Shown here piece by piece: positions 2-7,144 of a DNA stretch of 7,144 nt. This stretch comes from Sphingobium sp. (GTDB lineage: Bacteria; Pseudomonadota; Alphaproteobacteria; Sphingomonadales; Sphingomonadaceae). Below the pieces are notes generated by a model. The model saw only the letters and a list, made by a program, of their open reading frames with translations, ran no database searches and was not told the DNA's origin. Positions within the stretch are counted from its first letter, which is position 1; every line of letters starts with the position of its first letter. Made by a program: the position numbers and the translations under genes. The DNA lies in assembly GCA_030148625.1 (NCBI GenBank), contig JASBTC010000228.1, forward strand, positions 1 through 7,144, given 5' to 3'.

Positions 2-589
2 TCCAACTTCCTGGTCGAACAGGGGGTGGGCGAGGCAACCGATGTGCTGCTGATCGACGAGAATCTCTGCGTGGGTTGCGACAATTGCGAAAAGGCGTGT
101 GCCGACAGCCATGAGGGCCTGTCCCGGCTCGATCGCGAGGCAGGCCGGACCTATGCGCATCTTCACGTGCCGACGAGCTGCCGGCATTGCGAGCATCCGC
201 ATTGCATGTCCGATTGCCCGCCCAATGCCATCCATCGCGGGCCCGATGGCGAAGTGTTCATCGACGACAGCTGCATCGGTTGCGGCAATTGCCAGCGCAA
301 CTGCCCCTATGGCGTGATCCGCATGGATGCGGTGCCGCCGAAGAAACCGAGCCTGCTGAGCTGGCTGTTCTTCGGCGCGGGGCCGGGCCCGGGGGAACCG
401 GGCAAGGCTTGGTCCTACGCCCATGCCGAGCCGGGAGTGGAGAAGCCCAAAAAAGCGATCAAATGCGATATGTGCGCGGGAATCGACGGCGGGCCGGCTT
501 GTGTGCGGGCATGTCCCACCGGGGCGGCGATCCGTGTTGCGCCTGAGGATTTCCTGAGCGTTGCCCGGCTGGAGCGGGGGGAAGCGTGA
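2..589 (+). CDS. Four-cluster [4Fe-4S] ferredoxin-type electron-transfer protein, C-terminal part (5' end outside window)
   Basis: The frame is open from base 2, so the gene starts upstream; the GTG at 26 is internal. Counting from the first visible codon, four cysteine groups are complete: C23-C26-C29-C33 (CVGCDNCEKAC), C60-C63-C68-C72, C91-C94-C97-C101 (CIGCGNCQRNC) and C155-C158-C167-C171. This is the four-cluster layout of the DmsB/HybA/NrfC-like ferredoxin superfamily, which passes electrons between a catalytic subunit and a membrane quinone or haem partner. No membrane helix or export signal is visible, so a cytoplasmic location is inferred. A Gly/Pro-rich stretch with a hydrophobic patch (LLSWLFF, about residues 118-124) sits between clusters three and four and could be a docking loop. 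From memory, proteins with this sequence style carry N-terminal cyclic-nucleotide-binding and flavin oxidoreductase domains; that part is not in the window. The next gene on this strand is a membrane cytochrome b, a likely electron partner. Confidence 0.88.
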   Translation, partial: SNFLVEQGVGEATDVLLIDENLCVGCDNCEKACADSHEGLSRLDREAGRTYAHLHVPTSCRHCEHPHCMSDCPPNAIHRGPDGEVFIDDSCIGCGNCQRNCPYGVIRMDAVPPKKPSLLSWLFFGAGPGPGEPGKAWSYAHAEPGVEKPKKAIKCDMCAGIDGGPACVRACPTGAAIRVAPEDFLSVARLERGEA

Positions 590-836: not shown

Positions 837-1709
837 ATGGCCACACGCGTCGCATCCCGCCGCGTAAAGGGCGAGACGCTGCATGACGGTTTCCTGCGTC
901 ATCGCGATTTCCGCTGGCTGAAGATCTGCACCGCCGTCTCGCTGGTGACGATCGTCGCCTATTGCCTGATCGACGTGACGCCGCGGCACAATGGCGGCAG
1001 CTGGCTGGGCTATGCGCTGGGAACCATCGGCGCGCTCCAGATCCTCTGGCTGACCGCATTGGGCCTCAGGAAGCGTGCGATGACACGGGGGCGCTGGTCG
1101 CTGAAGGCGTGGACCTCGGCGCATGTCTATATCGGGCTCAGCCTGATCGTGATCGGGACGCTGCACACCGGATTCCAGTTCGGGCTCAACGTCCATACCC
1201 TCGCCTATGCGCTGATGATGATCGTCATCCTGTCCGGCATGGTCGGAGTCGCGTTCTACGCGATGCTGCCAGCCGCGCTCAGCAATAATCGCGAGGAAAT
1301 GACGCAGCCGCAGATGATCGATGCGCTGCGCTCGATCGACCGGCAGCTCCACGATGCGGCACAGCCGATCGATCATCATCTCGCCGCCCTGGTGCGCAGC
1401 TCGCTCGAGCAAAATCCGTTCGGCGGCGGGCTCGTACGGCGCCTGTCGGGCCGTTATCCCAATTGCGCGACACGTGCGGCGCAGGCCGCGATCCGCCGCG
1501 AGACGGCCTACAAGCCCAATCTGGGCGATGATCCGATCGAGAAGGTCGATGCCTTGCTGGTGCGCAAGGAAGCGATCCTGGCGCGTGTCCGCCGCCATCT
1601 GCGGATCAAGGCGCTGCTGGAGGTGTGGCTGTACGTCCATGTGCCCGTCACCTTCGCGCTGATCGCGGCGCTCTCGGCACATATCGTCTCCGTGTTCTTC
1701 TACTGGTGA
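837..1709 (+). CDS. Integral-membrane di-haem cytochrome b-type protein
   Basis: This 290-aa protein has five clear hydrophobic segments at about residues 28-47, 56-77, 92-115, 119-147 and 263-289. Two of them carry paired histidines: H96 and H110 in helix three, H268 and H282 in helix five. Each pair is separated by 13 residues, the spacing that stacks two b haems across a membrane in cytochrome b families. A further histidine, H120, lies at the start of helix four. A charged soluble segment of about 115 residues (148-262), rich in Arg, Gln and Ala, separates helices four and five. The likely role is moving electrons across the inner membrane between the upstream Fe-S protein and the downstream multihaem cytochrome. 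The ATG at 837 is chosen because little coding-like sequence precedes it, but its ribosome-binding site is poor. The exact family is not recognised. Confidence 0.82.
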   Translation: MATRVASRRVKGETLHDGFLRHRDFRWLKICTAVSLVTIVAYCLIDVTPRHNGGSWLGYALGTIGALQILWLTALGLRKRAMTRGRWSLKAWTSAHVYIGLSLIVIGTLHTGFQFGLNVHTLAYALMMIVILSGMVGVAFYAMLPAALSNNREEMTQPQMIDALRSIDRQLHDAAQPIDHHLAALVRSSLEQNPFGGGLVRRLSGRYPNCATRAAQAAIRRETAYKPNLGDDPIEKVDALLVRKEAILARVRRHLRIKALLEVWLYVHVPVTFALIAALSAHIVSVFFYW

Positions 1710-1719
1710 GGGTGCGCGC

Positions 1720-3549
1720 ATGACGTTCCTCATCCGCCAGATCTCGCATACGGCCGACGGGCGGGAGATTGTGCGGCCGGTGAAGGTGGATCGCTCCGTC
1801 ATCACCATCGGCCGCCTGGCGGAGAACGACATCCATCTCGCCGATCTGGCGGTGACGCTGCGCCATGCCGAGATCGGCCGGGTCGATGCGCGCCGGATTA
1901 CGGTGCGCGCACTCGACACGCTGGGGTTCGAACTCGACGGCCGCACCGTCATGTCGACCGAGATCGATGCCGCAAAGGGGGCCGAACTCAGGTTCGGCGG
2001 ACACCGGCTGACCGTCGGGCTCGACGGCGATGCGGTGACCATCGCGGTCGAACGGGTCGGGGCGTTGTCCGATGCGACCGGAGACAAGGACGAACAGAGG
2101 GTTTTCTCGCTGCGCGGCCTGCTGCCGGGCAAGCGGATCAGTGCCTGGGCGTTTGCGGGGCTGGTGCTTGCCGCATTCCTCGTTGCGCCGATCATGACTT
2201 GGGCGACCTATCGCAGCGTCGAACAGCGGCCGGTGAGCTTCCATGCCGACAGCCTGTGGTCGAGCGGCTCGCTCAGCCAGGCGCACAAGAGCCTCCAGAA
2301 TAATTGCCAGGCCTGTCACAAGGACGCATTCGTCGCGGTGACCGATCACGCGTGCGCGACCTGCCACAAGGGCACGCACGATCATGCCGATCCGATGCGG
2401 CTGGCGGCGGCCAAGGCGCCGCCGGGGCTGGGCGGGCGCGTCGGGCTGATGGTTGCCGCCGCCTTCAATCGGCCGCCGGGGCGCTGCGTCGAATGTCATA
2501 GCGAGCATGAAGGGGCGGGGCGGATGCAGCCCGCAGCCCAGCGCTTCTGCGCCGACTGTCACGGCGGGATGAAGGAGCGGCTGGGGGACACGCAATTGCT
2601 CGACGCGGCGGATTTCGGCGTCGCGCATCCTGAATTCCGGCCGGCGGTGATCGTCCGGCCCGACGGGGATCGTCCGATGTTGCGCCGCATCTCGTTCACG
2701 GCGCGGCCGCGCGAGGAGAATGGGCTGAAATTCCCGCATGCCTTGCATCTGTCGAAGGCGGGCGGGGTGGCGCGAATGGCGCAGACCATGGCGGCCGAGC
2801 AGGGGTTCGGCCAGAGTCTGGCGTGCAAGGACTGTCATACGCCCGATCCGTCGGGCACGCGTTTCCAGCCGATCGACATGGAGCGCGATTGCGCCATGTG
2901 CCACAGCCTCGCCTTCGACCAGGTGGGCGGAACGATCCGGACATTGCGTCACGGCGATCCGGCGCAGGTGGTGGCGGATCTGCGTGCCTATTATCGCGGT
3001 ACCGGCCCGGCGCGGCCGCCCAGCCTGGGCGGCATGGCGCGACGGCGACCGGGGGATTATGCGCAGGGGCAGACCTATTATGCCTATTTCGGTGCGGCTG
3101 CGTCGCGCGGTGGCCAGGCGGAACAGGCGGTGCGCGCGGTCTTCTCGCCCGGCGGTGCCTGTTTCGATTGCCATGCCATCGATCGACAGGGAAATGCAGC
3201 GAGCGCGGGATTCCGCGTCCAGCCGGTCAGCCAGAATCCCCGCTATTTCCGCAAGGGCTGGTTCGATCATGACGCGCACCGCACCGAGACCTGCGAGAGT
3301 TGTCATGCCGCACCCACGTCCAATTCGGCCGGCGATCTGTTGATCCCCGATCTGGCGTCGTGCCGGACCTGCCATGTCGGCGAAGGGGGCGCGGCGTTGA
3401 AGCGGGTCGCGGAGCCGGTGGCGTCGGGCTGTGCGCTATGTCACAGCTATCACATGGACGACGGCGCACCATGGTCCACGCGACAGCGAGTCGCGCGGAT
3501 CAAGGGTGGAACGAATGCCGGAGCCGCCGCGGGTGGAGGACGCCGTTGA
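1720..3549 (+). CDS. FHA domain-transmembrane-decahaem cytochrome c fusion protein
   Basis: This 609-aa protein has three parts. Residues 1-105 resemble a forkhead-associated (FHA) domain: IGR at 30-32, then NDIHLAD and T46-x-x-H49-A, and DG at 73-74 where many FHA domains have NG. One hydrophobic helix spans about 141-164; the preceding PGKR suggests the N-terminus is cytoplasmic and the rest periplasmic. Ten CXXCH haem c motifs begin at residues 196, 212, 256, 277, 369, 391, 481, 525, 548 and 571. FPHALH (338-343) and FDHDAH (515-520) match the F-x-H-x-x-H pattern that supplies distal ligands in cytochrome c3/c7-like and NrfH-like proteins. It starts 10 bp after the cytochrome b gene, with a GAGGG ribosome-binding site overlapping that gene's stop, so the two are probably cotranscribed. 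The likely role is to carry electrons in the periplasm, with the FHA part binding a phosphothreonine protein or acting as a scaffold inside the cell. Confidence 0.92.
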   Translation: MTFLIRQISHTADGREIVRPVKVDRSVITIGRLAENDIHLADLAVTLRHAEIGRVDARRITVRALDTLGFELDGRTVMSTEIDAAKGAELRFGGHRLTVGLDGDAVTIAVERVGALSDATGDKDEQRVFSLRGLLPGKRISAWAFAGLVLAAFLVAPIMTWATYRSVEQRPVSFHADSLWSSGSLSQAHKSLQNNCQACHKDAFVAVTDHACATCHKGTHDHADPMRLAAAKAPPGLGGRVGLMVAAAFNRPPGRCVECHSEHEGAGRMQPAAQRFCADCHGGMKERLGDTQLLDAADFGVAHPEFRPAVIVRPDGDRPMLRRISFTARPREENGLKFPHALHLSKAGGVARMAQTMAAEQGFGQSLACKDCHTPDPSGTRFQPIDMERDCAMCHSLAFDQVGGTIRTLRHGDPAQVVADLRAYYRGTGPARPPSLGGMARRRPGDYAQGQTYYAYFGAAASRGGQAEQAVRAVFSPGGACFDCHAIDRQGNAASAGFRVQPVSQNPRYFRKGWFDHDAHRTETCESCHAAPTSNSAGDLLIPDLASCRTCHVGEGGAALKRVAEPVASGCALCHSYHMDDGAPWSTRQRVARIKGGTNAGAAAGGGRR

Positions 3550-3568: not shown

Positions 3569-4420
3569 ATGCTGATCGGGCAGATCACCGACGTCCATCT
3601 GGGATTCGAGCCCGACAATCCGGCCGAATTCAATCGCAGGCGGCTCGATCAGGTGATCGCCTATCTCGCTCGCCCCGGCCATCGTCCCGACATGCTGCTC
3701 GCGACCGGCGATCTCGTCGATCGCGGCGATGGCGACAGCTATCGCCGCCTCCGCAATGCATTGAGCCTCTGTCCATTTCCGGTCTGGCCCTGTGTCGGCA
3801 ATCATGACCTCCGCGAGAATTTCGCGGCCTGTTTCCCCGAAATCCCGCTGGCCGACGGTTTCGTCCAATATGAGATCCCGGATACGGGCAATCTCCGGAT
3901 TCTGGTGATCGATACGCTGGAGGAGGGGCGCCATGGCGGCGCCTTCTGCGAGGTGCGCGCCGCCTGGCTTTCGGCGCGTCTCGCCGAAGCCCCCGAGGTG
4001 CCGACGGTCATCGTCATGCATCATCCGCCGCTGGAGATGGGGATAGACTGGATGGATGGCGGCCTCGACGAGCCCTGGACGCGACTCTTCGCCGCGACGA
4101 TCGCGCCGCATCCGCAGGTGCGCACGCTGATCTGCGGTCACCTCCACCGCTCGATCTCGGCTGCCTGGAATGGCCGGACGGTGACGATCTGCTCGTCGAC
4201 CGCCCCGCAACTTGCGCTCGACCTTTCGCCGATCGATCCCGACCGGCCCGACAATCGCCCAATGATCATTGCCGATCCGCCGGCCTATGCGATGCATCGT
4301 TGGAATGGCCGCGAACTCGTCAGCCATTTCGATACGGCCGACGAGCATGTCATGCTCGCCAAATTCGATCCCTCGATGCAGGCGCTGGTGCGCGAACTGG
4401 TGGGCGAACGCGGGCCTTGA
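3569..4420 (+). CDS. Calcineurin-like metallophosphoesterase, class III cyclic-nucleotide phosphodiesterase (CpdA/Icc) type
   Basis: This 283-aa protein carries the complete dinuclear metal-site signature: D8-x-H10, G47-D48-x-x-D51-R-G, G77-N78-H79-D80, H151-H152 and G190-H191-x-H193. Length and motif order fit CpdA-like enzymes, which hydrolyse 3',5'-cAMP to AMP in the cytoplasm, but related proteins act on other phosphodiesters, so the substrate is inferred. No signal peptide is visible. The start at 3569 gives MLIGQITDVHLG, the usual beginning of the family, 19 bp after the cytochrome gene. An in-frame ATG at 3515, overlapping that gene by 35 bp, has a better ribosome-binding site (AAGGG at 3502-3506) and would add 18 residues. 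The spacing suggests cotranscription with the redox genes. The 34-bp inverted repeat downstream probably ends the transcript. Confidence 0.9.
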   Translation: MLIGQITDVHLGFEPDNPAEFNRRRLDQVIAYLARPGHRPDMLLATGDLVDRGDGDSYRRLRNALSLCPFPVWPCVGNHDLRENFAACFPEIPLADGFVQYEIPDTGNLRILVIDTLEEGRHGGAFCEVRAAWLSARLAEAPEVPTVIVMHHPPLEMGIDWMDGGLDEPWTRLFAATIAPHPQVRTLICGHLHRSISAAWNGRTVTICSSTAPQLALDLSPIDPDRPDNRPMIIADPPAYAMHRWNGRELVSHFDTADEHVMLAKFDPSMQALVRELVGERGP

Positions 4421-4443: not shown

Positions 4444-4535
4444 CACCATGTCATTCCCGCGAACGCGGGAATCCAGAAGATGCCGGCATCGCACTTGTGA
4501 CTCTGGATTCCCGCGTTCGCGGGAATGACATGGTG
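4444..4535. repeat. 34-bp perfect inverted repeat (REP-like element, probable bidirectional terminator)
   Basis: Arms at 4444-4477 and 4502-4535 are exact reverse complements over 34 bp, with a 24-bp spacer. Each arm contains its own palindrome (TTCCCGCG-AA-CGCGGGAA at 4454-4471 in the left arm), and the spacer contains the 12-bp palindrome GATGCCGGCATC (4479-4490). The GGATTCCCGCG/CGCGGGAATGAC core is a dispersed repeat type I know from many proteobacterial genomes. It sits between the converging phosphoesterase and 64-aa genes, 24 bp after the first stop and 15 bp beyond the second. A terminator role on both strands is inferred; no T-tract follows either arm. Confidence 0.9.
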
Positions 4536-4549
4536 AAACCACCGTCAAT

Positions 4550-4744
4550 TCAGCCCTTGGCGTGCGACTTGCCTTCCGCCTCGGCGCGTTCGAGCTCCTG
4601 GGCTTCGTCGCCGTCAAGCGCGTTCTCCGCATCCTTTGCCGCCTTTTCGACGCGATTTTCGTCCTTGGCAAAGGCGCTTGTCGCTTCGTCATAATCGCGC
4701 GCGGCCTTGTAATTGCCTTCGCCCTGTATCTTGTCGGTGGTCAT
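4550..4744 (-). CDS. Small charged hypothetical protein (64 aa)
   Basis: The protein begins MTTDKIQGEGNY and is dominated by Ala, Glu, Lys and Asp, with no hydrophobic segment, signal peptide or cysteine. It is therefore predicted to be soluble, cytoplasmic and largely helical or disordered. I recognise the style from conserved uncharacterised proteobacterial proteins, often sharing the opening KIxGEGNY, but know no assigned function. A strong ribosome-binding site, GGGAGG (minus strand, bases 4750-4755), lies 5 nt before the ATG and touches the stop codon of the entericidin-like gene upstream. The two genes are 10 bp apart and almost certainly form one transcript. A stress-related role is inferred only from that neighbour and the possible promoter at 4927-4952. 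Confidence 0.85.
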   Translation of the reverse strand: MTTDKIQGEGNYKAARDYDEATSAFAKDENRVEKAAKDAENALDGDEAQELERAEAEGKSHAKG

Positions 4745-4754
4745 CGCGGCCTCC

Positions 4755-4880
4755 CTATTTCGCGGTGTCTTCGACCGCGTCGCCCGCGGACTTCAGATCC
4801 TTGCCTGCGCCTTCGACGGTGTTGCAGGCGGCGACAGCGAGGCTGCCGAGCAGCGCGAATGAAAGAATGAGCTTCTTCAT
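4755..4880 (-). CDS. Entericidin A/B-family small lipoprotein (41 aa)
   Basis: The reading frame encodes 41 residues starting MKKLILSFALLGSLAVAAC. It has a short positive start, a hydrophobic core and a lipobox V16-A17-A18-C19, giving a lipidated mature peptide of 23 residues. Residue +2 is Asn, not Asp, so sorting to the outer membrane is expected. The mature part, CNTVEGAGKDLKSAGDAV, matches the entericidin EcnA/EcnB pattern of a Cys-Asn-Thr start followed by a Gly/Ala/Lys/Asp-rich amphipathic tail. In Escherichia coli the pair forms a stationary-phase antidote/toxin system; in alphaproteobacteria single copies are common and their role is less clear. The ribosome-binding site AAGGAG (minus strand, 4887-4892) is 6 nt from the ATG. 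Whether this is the toxin-like or antidote-like form cannot be decided. Confidence 0.9.
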   Translation of the reverse strand: MKKLILSFALLGSLAVAACNTVEGAGKDLKSAGDAVEDTAK

Positions 4881-4963: not shown

Positions 4964-7144
4964 TCAGCCGCCAGGAATCAGCGCCGGAAGCCAATCCTCC
5001 AACGTGACCGTGTCGCGAACCTTGTAGGGAACGCCGCGGCGGTTGAGGAATAGCCGCTCCATTTCAGGCCGGGTGAAAGGGCGCGAGCCGAGCCGGCCGA
5101 ACACCGCGATCTGCCCGCCGGTCTCGTCGACCGCGCGATCGCGATCGAGCCCCTTGGAGAGCGCGCGGGCAGGTGAGGGCGTGCGTGCCCATGCGATCAG
5201 CTCGGGCATCGGCGCGGGCGAGAAACCGTAGAAATTGGGCTGGCTGTCGGGCGAAGTGAGCTGGATCACCTTCAATCCGTTCCGTCCATCGGCGACATAG
5301 GCGAAGAGCGAGGCGTTGGTGGTGCCGACGATCACATCCTGCGCGTCGTTCATCGCGCCGCCGAAACTTTCCATGCGGTAGACGCGCGGACGAGCGGGGG
5401 TCTTCACATCGACGATCGCCAGCCCGTCGCGGCCCGCGGCGACATAGGCATAGGTGCGCGCGAGATAGAGGCGACGGGCATCTGCGAGCGGGATCGTGCC
5501 CGACGGGATCGCCACGGGCGTATCGAGCCGGGTGACGTCGAACAGTTTCACGCCTTCGGCATCGGTCACCCAGAGATAGCGGAACTGGATGGCCGAGGCG
5601 CGCGCGTCGCGCAGGGGAAGCGTGACGACGAGGCGGGGCTTCAGCGGATCGTCGAGGTCGACGACGACCAGCCCGGCATCGGCGGCGATATAGGCGATAT
5701 GGCCCGCCAGCGTGACGTGGCGTGCACCCTTCAGTGCGTTGCCGGGGTTCCAGGTGGCGGCGCGCTTCAGGAAATTGTTGCGGAACTCGCCATCGGCCAG
5801 CGTGGTCACATCGACGAGGATCAATCCTTCGGCACCGTCGGTGACGACCGCATAATTATAGATCGGGTGGAAGGGCTGCTCCTGGTTCATTTCGCGCATC
5901 TCTGCGGTGTTGCGCAGCGGATTGATCGGCTGGTTGGTGGCGAGCGCCATGCAGGTGGCGTCGGTTGATTTCACCTGCATATCCTGGCCGAGCGCTGAGA
6001 AGGGCGCGGTCACGATCCGTTCGGAGAAACCCTTGTTGCCGATCGAGGCGACGTCATAGACGCGGAAACCGCCGCGCCCTTCCGCCACGAACATATATTC
6101 GCCGCGCAGTTGCAGGCAGCCGACCGCGCCCGCCGTGCCCTGGGTGATGTTGCGGAATTCCTCGAGCGCGTGGGTCTCGCCTGACAGGCGCTTGTCGAAG
6201 GTCTTGCCGCGTGTCCAATCCTTCAATTCGCGGTTGTTGCGCTCGACATGGAGTTTCCACCAGTCGGGATAGGCATAGCGCTGGAGATAGGAGCCGATCA
6301 CCGCCTGGGGTTCGTCCCATTCGGTGACGCGCACCGCTTCGAAGCCATTGTCCAGACCCGTCCAGGCGTGGAGCCCGACGAAATTGACGAAATTGGTGCC
6401 GAGCAGCATCAGCTGCGACATGATCGCGTTATTGTCGTCGTCCGCGCTCAGATGGCAGTCGCTGCAGGTCTTGGTCTCGGTCTTGCGCACCGTGTGCGGG
6501 AAATGCGGCGCGAACGCCTGGGACGAGAAACCCGCCGACGAGATTGGCGGCTGCTGGATATAGATGCGTTCGCGATTGATGTTGGTCGAGGACAGGATCA
6601 GCGCCGAGGTCGAGCGGACCGGGGAGACGATATTGCCCTTGGTGGTCTGGTGCCGGCCAAGCTGGAACATGTCGTCGCGCGCCACCTGTGGGTTGTAGGT
6701 GGCGAAATTGCGCGTCTCCGTGCCCTCATATTTATGCTCGGTGGTTTTCCAGTTCGCCTCGATCGGCAAATGGCAGCCGCCGCATGAGGTGGTCCAGGAG
6801 AGATGGCAGGTGAAGCACGCCATGGTGTCGTCGCCATGCGCGCGATCCGCCTTGGCGACGCCGGGGCCGAAACCATATTTGCCGTCGTCGGCACCGGTGC
6901 GGCCCATCAGCTTGGCGCGCGCGGCCTTGGCGTTGAAGTGCGGATTGCCCCTGGTCACCGCATCTTTGACCAACGACACTTGCCATTCGAGCGCCGGATC
7001 GACGATCGAGCGCTGGATCAGCACGCGGTTTCCGGCCGCGTCCTGAGACCATTCGAAACGGCGCTTGCCATCGGCATTGCGCAGCAGCGCGAGATTGCTG
7101 CCCTGCGGCCGCGCGGCGGGGCCGGAGGTCAGCAAGGTCGGATA
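4964..7144 (-). CDS. Multihaem cytochrome c with C-terminal LVIVD propeller repeats (N-terminus outside window)
   Basis: The frame is open to the right edge, so the TTG at 7135 is probably internal; 726 residues are visible. Counting from the edge, haem c motifs are CFTCH (residue 110), CGGCH (121) and CSDCH (227). Extra histidines such as those in TEHKYEG, GRHQTT and PHFPHTV could be distal ligands. From about residue 350 come propeller-type repeats with the LVIVD signature: GFRVYDV (about 357), GLILVDV (438), GLVVVDLDDPLKPR (490), GVKLFDV (531), GLAIVDVKTPARPR (571) and GLKVIQL (621). Both modules need an extracytoplasmic location, so an export signal is expected beyond the edge. LVIVD repeats are known from bacterial and archaeal surface proteins of uncertain function. 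It is on the opposite strand from the redox operon and ends 83 bp before the small lipoprotein gene. An electron-transfer or surface role is inferred; no catalytic residues are recognised. Confidence 0.88.
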   Translation of the reverse strand, partial: YPTLLTSGPAARPQGSNLALLRNADGKRRFEWSQDAAGNRVLIQRSIVDPALEWQVSLVKDAVTRGNPHFNAKAARAKLMGRTGADDGKYGFGPGVAKADRAHGDDTMACFTCHLSWTTSCGGCHLPIEANWKTTEHKYEGTETRNFATYNPQVARDDMFQLGRHQTTKGNIVSPVRSTSALILSSTNINRERIYIQQPPISSAGFSSQAFAPHFPHTVRKTETKTCSDCHLSADDDNNAIMSQLMLLGTNFVNFVGLHAWTGLDNGFEAVRVTEWDEPQAVIGSYLQRYAYPDWWKLHVERNNRELKDWTRGKTFDKRLSGETHALEEFRNITQGTAGAVGCLQLRGEYMFVAEGRGGFRVYDVASIGNKGFSERIVTAPFSALGQDMQVKSTDATCMALATNQPINPLRNTAEMREMNQEQPFHPIYNYAVVTDGAEGLILVDVTTLADGEFRNNFLKRAATWNPGNALKGARHVTLAGHIAYIAADAGLVVVDLDDPLKPRLVVTLPLRDARASAIQFRYLWVTDAEGVKLFDVTRLDTPVAIPSGTIPLADARRLYLARTYAYVAAGRDGLAIVDVKTPARPRVYRMESFGGAMNDAQDVIVGTTNASLFAYVADGRNGLKVIQLTSPDSQPNFYGFSPAPMPELIAWARTPSPARALSKGLDRDRAVDETGGQIAVFGRLGSRPFTRPEMERLFLNRRGVPYKVRDTVTLEDWLPALIPGG

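Follow-up and report, generated by a model that had tools for sequence, protein, structure and literature searches.

Introduction

In Hmc/Tmc/Qrc-type complexes and MtrA-type decahaems, periplasmic multihaem c-type cytochromes are joined to redox subunits of the inner membrane and the cytoplasm. Two putative porin-cytochrome c systems of iron oxidisers, PCC3 and PCC4, are described in the main text of PMC5566968. PCC3 comprises a porin and very large extracellular and periplasmic multihaem cytochromes (MHCs, with medians of 34 and 21 haems); PCC4 comprises a porin, MHCs of 4, 5 and 10 haems, an inner membrane protein (IMP) and an Fe-S gene. The IMP of both systems, with five helices, about 300 amino acids, two WX3HX13H motifs and an SGXXG motif, is interpreted there as a cytochrome b with two haems, possibly in electron exchange with quinones. 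In the published models it connects the quinone pool with the wire in the periplasm. An Fe-S gene beside the IMP gene was noted only for PCC4 subgroup II, where it lies directly upstream and a 10-haem MHC also occurs.

Decahaem cytochromes with a forkhead-associated (FHA) domain may have left a single trace in the open-licence literature that we searched (preprints excluded). Table 1 of PMC10734462 (2023) names a ten-haem 'Forkhead-associated protein', cluster 403, in 27 of 87 iron-oxidising Gallionellaceae. In the main text of that paper the term 'Forkhead-associated' occurs once, in the table, and the section on it names no neighbours and no role. Judged by its table entry, this protein has the same name and haem count as the one studied here. 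Titles and abstract starts on LVIVD cytochromes, on Sphingomonadales multihaem/EET systems and on PCC3/PCC4 yielded no paper on the cassette described below, and none linking FHA, cNMP and the PCC inner membrane protein was found in titles, abstract starts and passages of the open-licence literature (preprints excluded).

Already known, as far as these sources go, are the table entry (PMC10734462) and the PCC3/PCC4 IMP (PMC5566968); the new result is the cassette in which the FHA-decahaem protein is encoded. We analysed a stretch of 7,144 nucleotides of Sphingobium DNA, hereafter the window. Like PCC3 and PCC4, its cassette combines a membrane protein bearing the IMP signature with multihaem c partners. 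Unlike them, it has an LVIVD cytochrome nearby and no 20-80-haem MHC, and the main text of PMC5566968 mentions neither FHA nor cNMP nor cyclic nucleotides. To the PCC-type IMP the cassette adds, in the cytoplasm, a concrete partner in the form of a conserved protein with NAD(P)H, FAD, cNMP and four [4Fe-4S] parts, and it supplies a cytochrome with a cytoplasmic domain of its own to which that partner could dock.

Results and Discussion

A conserved three-gene cassette

In each of 26 loci (L001-L012 and L028-L041), genes for an FeS protein, a membrane protein and the FHA-decahaem cytochrome follow one another in this order on one strand. The exception in spacing is L038, where 816 bases separate genes 2 and 3; between genes 1 and 2 the gap is -1 to 305 bases in the relatives. 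In the window this gap measures 247 bases (590-836) and by eye contains repeated and inverted CGAAGTCGAG-type pieces with the look of a repeat element.

Table 1. Features located in the window, in order of position
Feature	Position	Strand	Details
C-terminal four-[4Fe-4S] ferredoxin part of FAD/NAD(P)H-2xcNMP-FeS protein	2..589	+	5' part outside the window; full-length relative L001:6318-8861
Candidate di-haem cytochrome b (inner membrane protein, 290 aa)	837..1709	+	H96-x13-H110, H268-x13-H282
FHA-TM-decahaem cytochrome c	1720..3549	+	609 aa
FHA fold, residues 1-112	1720..2055	+	Gly31-Arg32 and His49 conserved; Thr46 at the Ser position and Gly69 at the Asn position
Single membrane helix, residues 139-163	2134..2208	+	Pro157 invariant (262/262)
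Ten CXXCH haem-attachment motifs, residues 196-575	2305..3444	+	
Calcineurin-like metallophosphoesterase, 283 aa from ATG 3569	3569..4420	+	PF00149, 67.4 bits
LVIVD-repeat multihaem cytochrome, 3' part	4964..7144	-	three CXXCH in the window; ten in full-length relative L001:13252-17271

The product of gene 1 measures about 830-910 amino acids in four ORF tables (848, 833, 833 and 909). Pfam recognises Pyr_redox, cNMP-binding (two stretches, PF00027, 103.9 bits) and ferredoxin domains in the L001 relative. All 16 cluster cysteines are present in 26/26 proteins, the FAD motif GxGxxG in all 24 rows that reach it, and the glycines of the NAD(P) motif in 26, 26 and 23 of 26. The hallmark of PF00027 is a phosphate-binding cassette with a Glu and an Arg. 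Both residues are kept in both domains in 26/26, and the relatives are members of this family; in the window's own copy this part falls beyond the window's edge. The two cyclic-nucleotide pockets look intact, which suggests that this protein may be under cyclic-nucleotide control.

The second gene encodes the IMP-like protein. Two WX3HX13H motifs occur in 26/26 sequences (the window and 25 loci), as do the invariant histidines 96, 110, 120, 268 and 282; SGXXG is present in 23 and replaced by TGXXG in the other three. By these motifs the 290-aa protein belongs with the PCC3/PCC4 IMPs. By Pfam it falls outside the ferric reductase and b561-type di-haem b families: PF01292 reaches 13.2 of the required 30.1 bits and PF01794 is absent at E values up to 1. 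Its AlphaFold2 model has a pLDDT of 80, and Foldseek returned nothing significant for it (best E 0.22), a negative that does not count against a b-type fold. Searched against the sequences of solved structures, the membrane-protein profile gave hits at chance level only (best E 0.09). With neither a fold match nor a Pfam b-type family, the assignment as di-haem b rests on the motif, and haem b would be expected at these histidines.

How tightly do genes 2 and 3 travel together? In 398 phylum-drawn genomes, a profile search with up to three candidates scored per genome found the whole FHA-decahaem architecture in 15. The remaining 71 of the 86 profile-matching genomes were rejected as carriers, their matches being short, partial and in other proteins. 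Strong matches to the membrane protein (up to six candidates scored per genome) occur in the same 15 genomes and in no other of the 398. As the membrane-protein profile was built partly from these 15 genomes, their matching is by construction; the lack of strong matches elsewhere is not. Ten further genomes gave weak matches (E 8e-14 to 2e-5), to which we return below.

The FHA-decahaem protein

An FHA-like module, one hydrophobic helix and ten CXXCH motifs had been proposed in an earlier note to lie in one reading frame, with the suggestion that the architecture be sought elsewhere. The single open reading frame bears this out, and the search returned 2001 matching database proteins (7997 candidates scored), besides the 15 of 398 genomes with the whole architecture; query coverage is at least 96% in the 120 database matches listed. 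We aligned 262 members, namely the window's protein, 240 database proteins and 21 proteins from the loci, some of which may come from one organism. Exactly ten CXXCH motifs are found in 258 of them, nine in three and eight in one. Named carriers among the database matches are Sphingomonas, Sphingobium, Novosphingobium, Croceibacterium and Erythrobacter, and also Tahibacter, Dokdonella and Rudaea. Twelve plasmid records, all from Sphingobium, carry the gene (tblastn, E limit 1e-20). In Sphingobium herbicidovorans the whole locus is found on pMSHV. The combination of FHA domain, helix and decahaem part is an old family, and some of the named genera are easily cultured.

The ten CXXCH motifs take up all 20 cysteines of the 609-aa protein. 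Ten further histidines (189, 222, 263, 303, 340, 343, 411, 517, 520 and 578), which lie within or just outside residues 196-575, are each kept in 261-262 of 262 sequences, as would be the case if every haem were bis-His ligated and none served catalysis. With a candidate distal ligand for each of its motifs the protein is a multihaem cytochrome c, and its haem part looks like a wire of candidate bis-His haems. The AlphaFold2 model, built without haems, is too weak in this part for a haem chain to be read from it. Unlike Hmc/Tmc/Qrc and DmsE-type decahaems, the FHA-decahaem protein scores far below the corresponding NCBIfam cut-offs (HmcA 18.2 of 400, TmcA 13.7 of 114 and QrcA 13 of 180 bits; DmsE-type decahaem 13.4 of 192.2 bits), and it belongs to none of these families.

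Related cassettes with a different N-terminal domain

The ten weak membrane-protein matches correspond to loci L067-L076, whose membrane proteins are all clearly homologous to that of the FHA cassette (tblastn, E 1e-7 to 2e-4). In eight (L067, L069-L071 and L073-L076) a membrane-anchored cytochrome with ten CXXCH motifs adjoins the WX3HX13H protein; in L068 the cytochrome shows six before the contig ends. Two WX3HX13H motifs are present in nine of the ten membrane proteins and one in L076. A four-cluster FeS gene lies upstream in 8/9 of these sister loci, with clear homology to that of the FHA cassette in eight loci (E 3e-39 to 2e-26); the fetched stretch of L069 contains no such gene. Homology of the cytochromes is weak, with 3/10 below 1e-3. 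Among named organisms, relatives of the sister cytochrome come chiefly from Magnetococcales; Azospirillum, Pirellulales and others follow with lower coverage or identity. In the two sister FeS proteins scanned with Pfam, cNMP domains are present and the flavin domain is absent. Together with the FeS-free stretch of L069, this indicates that not every cassette of the wider group has NAD(P)H input.

In place of the FHA domain, the sister cytochromes begin with a Cys-rich domain of about 85-90 residues, with eight shared cysteines in eight aligned sequences (L067 by eye). It has no Pfam match in the two sequences scanned and possibly binds metal. This domain stands ahead of the decahaem helix in L067-L071 and L073-L076 and constitutes an unnamed domain family. 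If the docking arm is interchangeable, a Cys-rich domain at the FHA position is to be expected; independent fusion of each domain to a common cytochrome would give the same picture as such a domain swap.

Three sister loci resemble PCC4 in part. L067, L075 and L076 have 4-haem, Fe-S, IMP and 10-haem genes, with no 5-haem ORF seen in the stretches fetched, and their 4-haem gene, as well as the Fe-S gene upstream of the IMP gene, fits the description of PCC4 subgroup II. In the FHA loci L001, L002, L004 and L005 we found no 4- or 5-haem ORF, one cytochrome being cut by the locus end. The same four loci contain no ORF with more than ten CXXCH within about 10 kb, which sets them apart from PCC3; the annotation of L077 contains no further large MHC. 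L072, the tenth locus found by the membrane-protein profile, is like PCC3 in having 24- and 27-haem ORFs beside its WX3HX13H protein. About 4 kb away on the other strand, L072 also has an ORF bearing motifs for FAD and 4Fe-4S and encodes a CcmH-type TPR protein.

A proposed docking role for the FHA domain

Why should a cytoplasmic FHA domain be covalently attached to a periplasmic electron wire? Our answer is that the FHA-decahaem protein is probably the periplasmic-output subunit of a three-protein electron-transfer complex of the inner membrane, in which the FHA domain acts as a phospho-independent dock. We read the cassette as the inner-membrane half of an electron conduit. Electrons would pass from NAD(P)H to FAD and four [4Fe-4S] clusters in the cytoplasmic protein with its two cyclic-nucleotide-binding domains, from the clusters to a pair of b haems in the membrane protein, where they might also be exchanged with the quinone pool, and from there to ten bis-His c haems of the FHA-decahaem protein. 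Where they are present, an LVIVD multihaem cytochrome and an outer-membrane barrel would take over from the decahaem part. Flow could run outward as reduction or inward as uptake. The FHA domain would stay in the cytoplasm and keep the flavo-FeS protein, or the ferredoxin end of it, in place at the b subunit. We infer both the physical complex and the partner of the FHA domain.

The fold itself is confidently that of an FHA domain. Where a non-FHA fold had been named as the finding that would overturn the earlier assignment, the AlphaFold2 model and a fold search place residues 1-112 in the FHA beta-sandwich fold of PF00498, with OdhI and GarA among the best matches by sequence and by fold. 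These two (2kb3, 8p5x, 6i2q) have the same fold, use it to hold a metabolic dehydrogenase and so provide a precedent, by analogy, for docking without phosphate; according to PMC9769921, unphosphorylated OdhI inhibits 2-oxoglutarate dehydrogenase. Unlike the FHA-decahaem protein, OdhI and GarA retain the canonical Ser and Asn in our alignment and carry no haem. Both are soluble proteins.

Could the domain instead serve assembly or oligomerisation alone, with no flavo-FeS protein docked to it? The cytoplasmic FHA-fold domain of the type III secretion protein YscD offers a model: YscD also consists of an FHA domain, one helix and a periplasmic domain, so that the topology is shared. The match of our protein to PF16697 (Yop-YscD_cpl) is weak, however, at 17.1 bits against a cut-off of 33.2, and the strict three-gene cassette favours a partner for the FHA domain inside the cassette. 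We consider a pure assembly module unlikely.

Docking without phosphate also agrees with the residues that line the FHA loops. Phosphothreonine readers among FHA domains use Gly-Arg, Ser, His and Asn in these loops. With the register set by HMMER alignment to OdhI and GarA, in which the full set is seen, Gly31 and Arg32 are invariant (262/262) and His49 is kept in 259/262, which leaves some anion binding possible. The Ser position holds Ser in 3/262 and Thr in 17/262; Ala (125), Glu (80) and Asp (21) account for most of the others. The Asn of the NG turn, residue 69, is Asn in 2/262 and Gly in the window, and the nine commonest residues of the preceding column 68 do not include Asn. By its sequence this is not a canonical phosphate reader. 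The rival view, that kinase signalling acts on the periplasmic wire, to switch it or to place it, through phosphothreonine read by the domain, can point to the conserved Gly-Arg and His, to the Thr at the Ser position in the window and 16 other members (Thr46 being the mildest substitution there), and to the presence of at least one PF00069 kinase in 12 of 19 carrier genomes. Against it stand the near-complete loss of Ser and Asn, the lack of any PF00069 match in the other seven genomes, and the Cys-rich domain that replaces FHA in related cassettes. The kinase search covered 19 of 26 available carrier genomes, of unstated completeness. Residue counts and kinase search together lower the standing of phospho-reading, which we hold to be improbable. 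Of the two roles first suggested for the domain in the earlier note, phospho-signalling or scaffolding, the scaffolding half survives; the reading of phosphate finds no support in the residue counts or in the seven genomes without a PF00069 match, and the sister cytochromes speak against it. An FHA fold is retained in this redox machine even though its canonical phosphate contacts have been lost.

Inspection by eye shows no signal peptide at the N-terminus, and the Arg139 with which the helix begins is the same in 129/129 sequences, which fits an N-in/C-out orientation; this topology, with the FHA domain in the cytoplasm and the haems in the periplasm as had been proposed, is the most likely one. 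Could the helix be an internal signal peptide whose cleavage releases the decahaem part and leaves the FHA domain as a mere leader? The invariant Pro157, a small residue (Ser, Thr, Gly or Ala) at position 160 in 259/262 and Ala162 in the window do fit the c-region of a signal-peptidase site. At the candidate -1 position, however, Ala is found in only 103/262 members, other residues there including Phe (83), Val (24) and Tyr (17; these three together 124), and Phe, Tyr, Val, Leu, Ile or Glu occupies it in 143/262. Moreover, 112 ordered residues precede the helix in the model. The -3 and -1 positions thus give no conserved signal-peptidase site, the cleaved signal that the earlier note had named as a second refuting finding is not borne out, and release of the cytochrome is very improbable. 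Fold, single helix, decahaem part and likely topology together support the covalent link from a cytoplasmic domain to a periplasmic wire that was originally proposed. Pro157 lies inside the helix and is invariant (262/262). Finally, that the decahaem part reports the periplasmic redox state inward through the helix to the FHA domain is likewise very improbable: only the topology speaks for it, and the conserved neighbours found are redox proteins and a phosphoesterase.

Putative outer module and neighbouring genes

The phosphoesterase downstream is SpdA/CpdA-like, below both NCBIfam cut-offs (SpdA 135.7 of 400 and CpdA 87 of 225 bits). It is encoded on the same strand within 700 bases after the decahaem gene in 18/26 loci; of the eight loci without it, L012 stops 269 bases past the decahaem match.

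In relatives the LVIVD cytochrome gene is followed by genes for a putative outer-membrane barrel and an HbpS-like protein. The barrel candidate has 614 amino acids, ends in Phe and has no Pfam match. LVIVD and barrel matches each occur in 13/26 loci, and among 12 whole genomes searched the LVIVD protein was found in eight and the barrel in nine. Both are missing in G040, G007 and G159, and the LVIVD protein alone in G160; the genomes that lack the outer module are among the most distant. The LVIVD/barrel module, which we would place at the outer membrane, is therefore a usual companion of the cassette and not an obligatory one.

A bolder scheme brings these parts together. Binding of cAMP or cGMP to the flavo-FeS subunit would gate NAD(P)H-linked flow through the di-haem b protein to the FHA-docked decahaem and on to the outer membrane, the phosphoesterase would reset the signal, and FHA and Cys-rich domains would be interchangeable docking arms in two lineages of one widespread machine. 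We offer this as speculation that may well prove wrong. The cassette makes cyclic-nucleotide control of bacterial electron export or uptake open to test.

Several smaller features accompany these genes. Upstream of the cassette, on the opposite strand, a CcmH/CycH-like TPR protein is encoded in 19/26 loci (L001-L012, L028, L029, L031-L034 and L036); it is possibly a haem-ligation helper. One copy of the LVIVD cytochrome (G405:C5:214549-218496) is reported with one internal TAG. After the phosphoesterase gene, at 4446-4545 of the window, two inverted copies of CACCATGTCATTCCCGCGAACGCGGGAATCCAGA surround a short loop and by eye have the look of a REP/MITE-type palindrome. A charged ORF of 64 amino acids (4550-4744) lies beside a 41-codon ORF on the minus strand (4755-4880), which by eye is lipoprotein-like, MKKLILSFALLGSLAVAACNTVEGAGKDLKSAGDAVEDTAK, and which we take to resemble entericidin.
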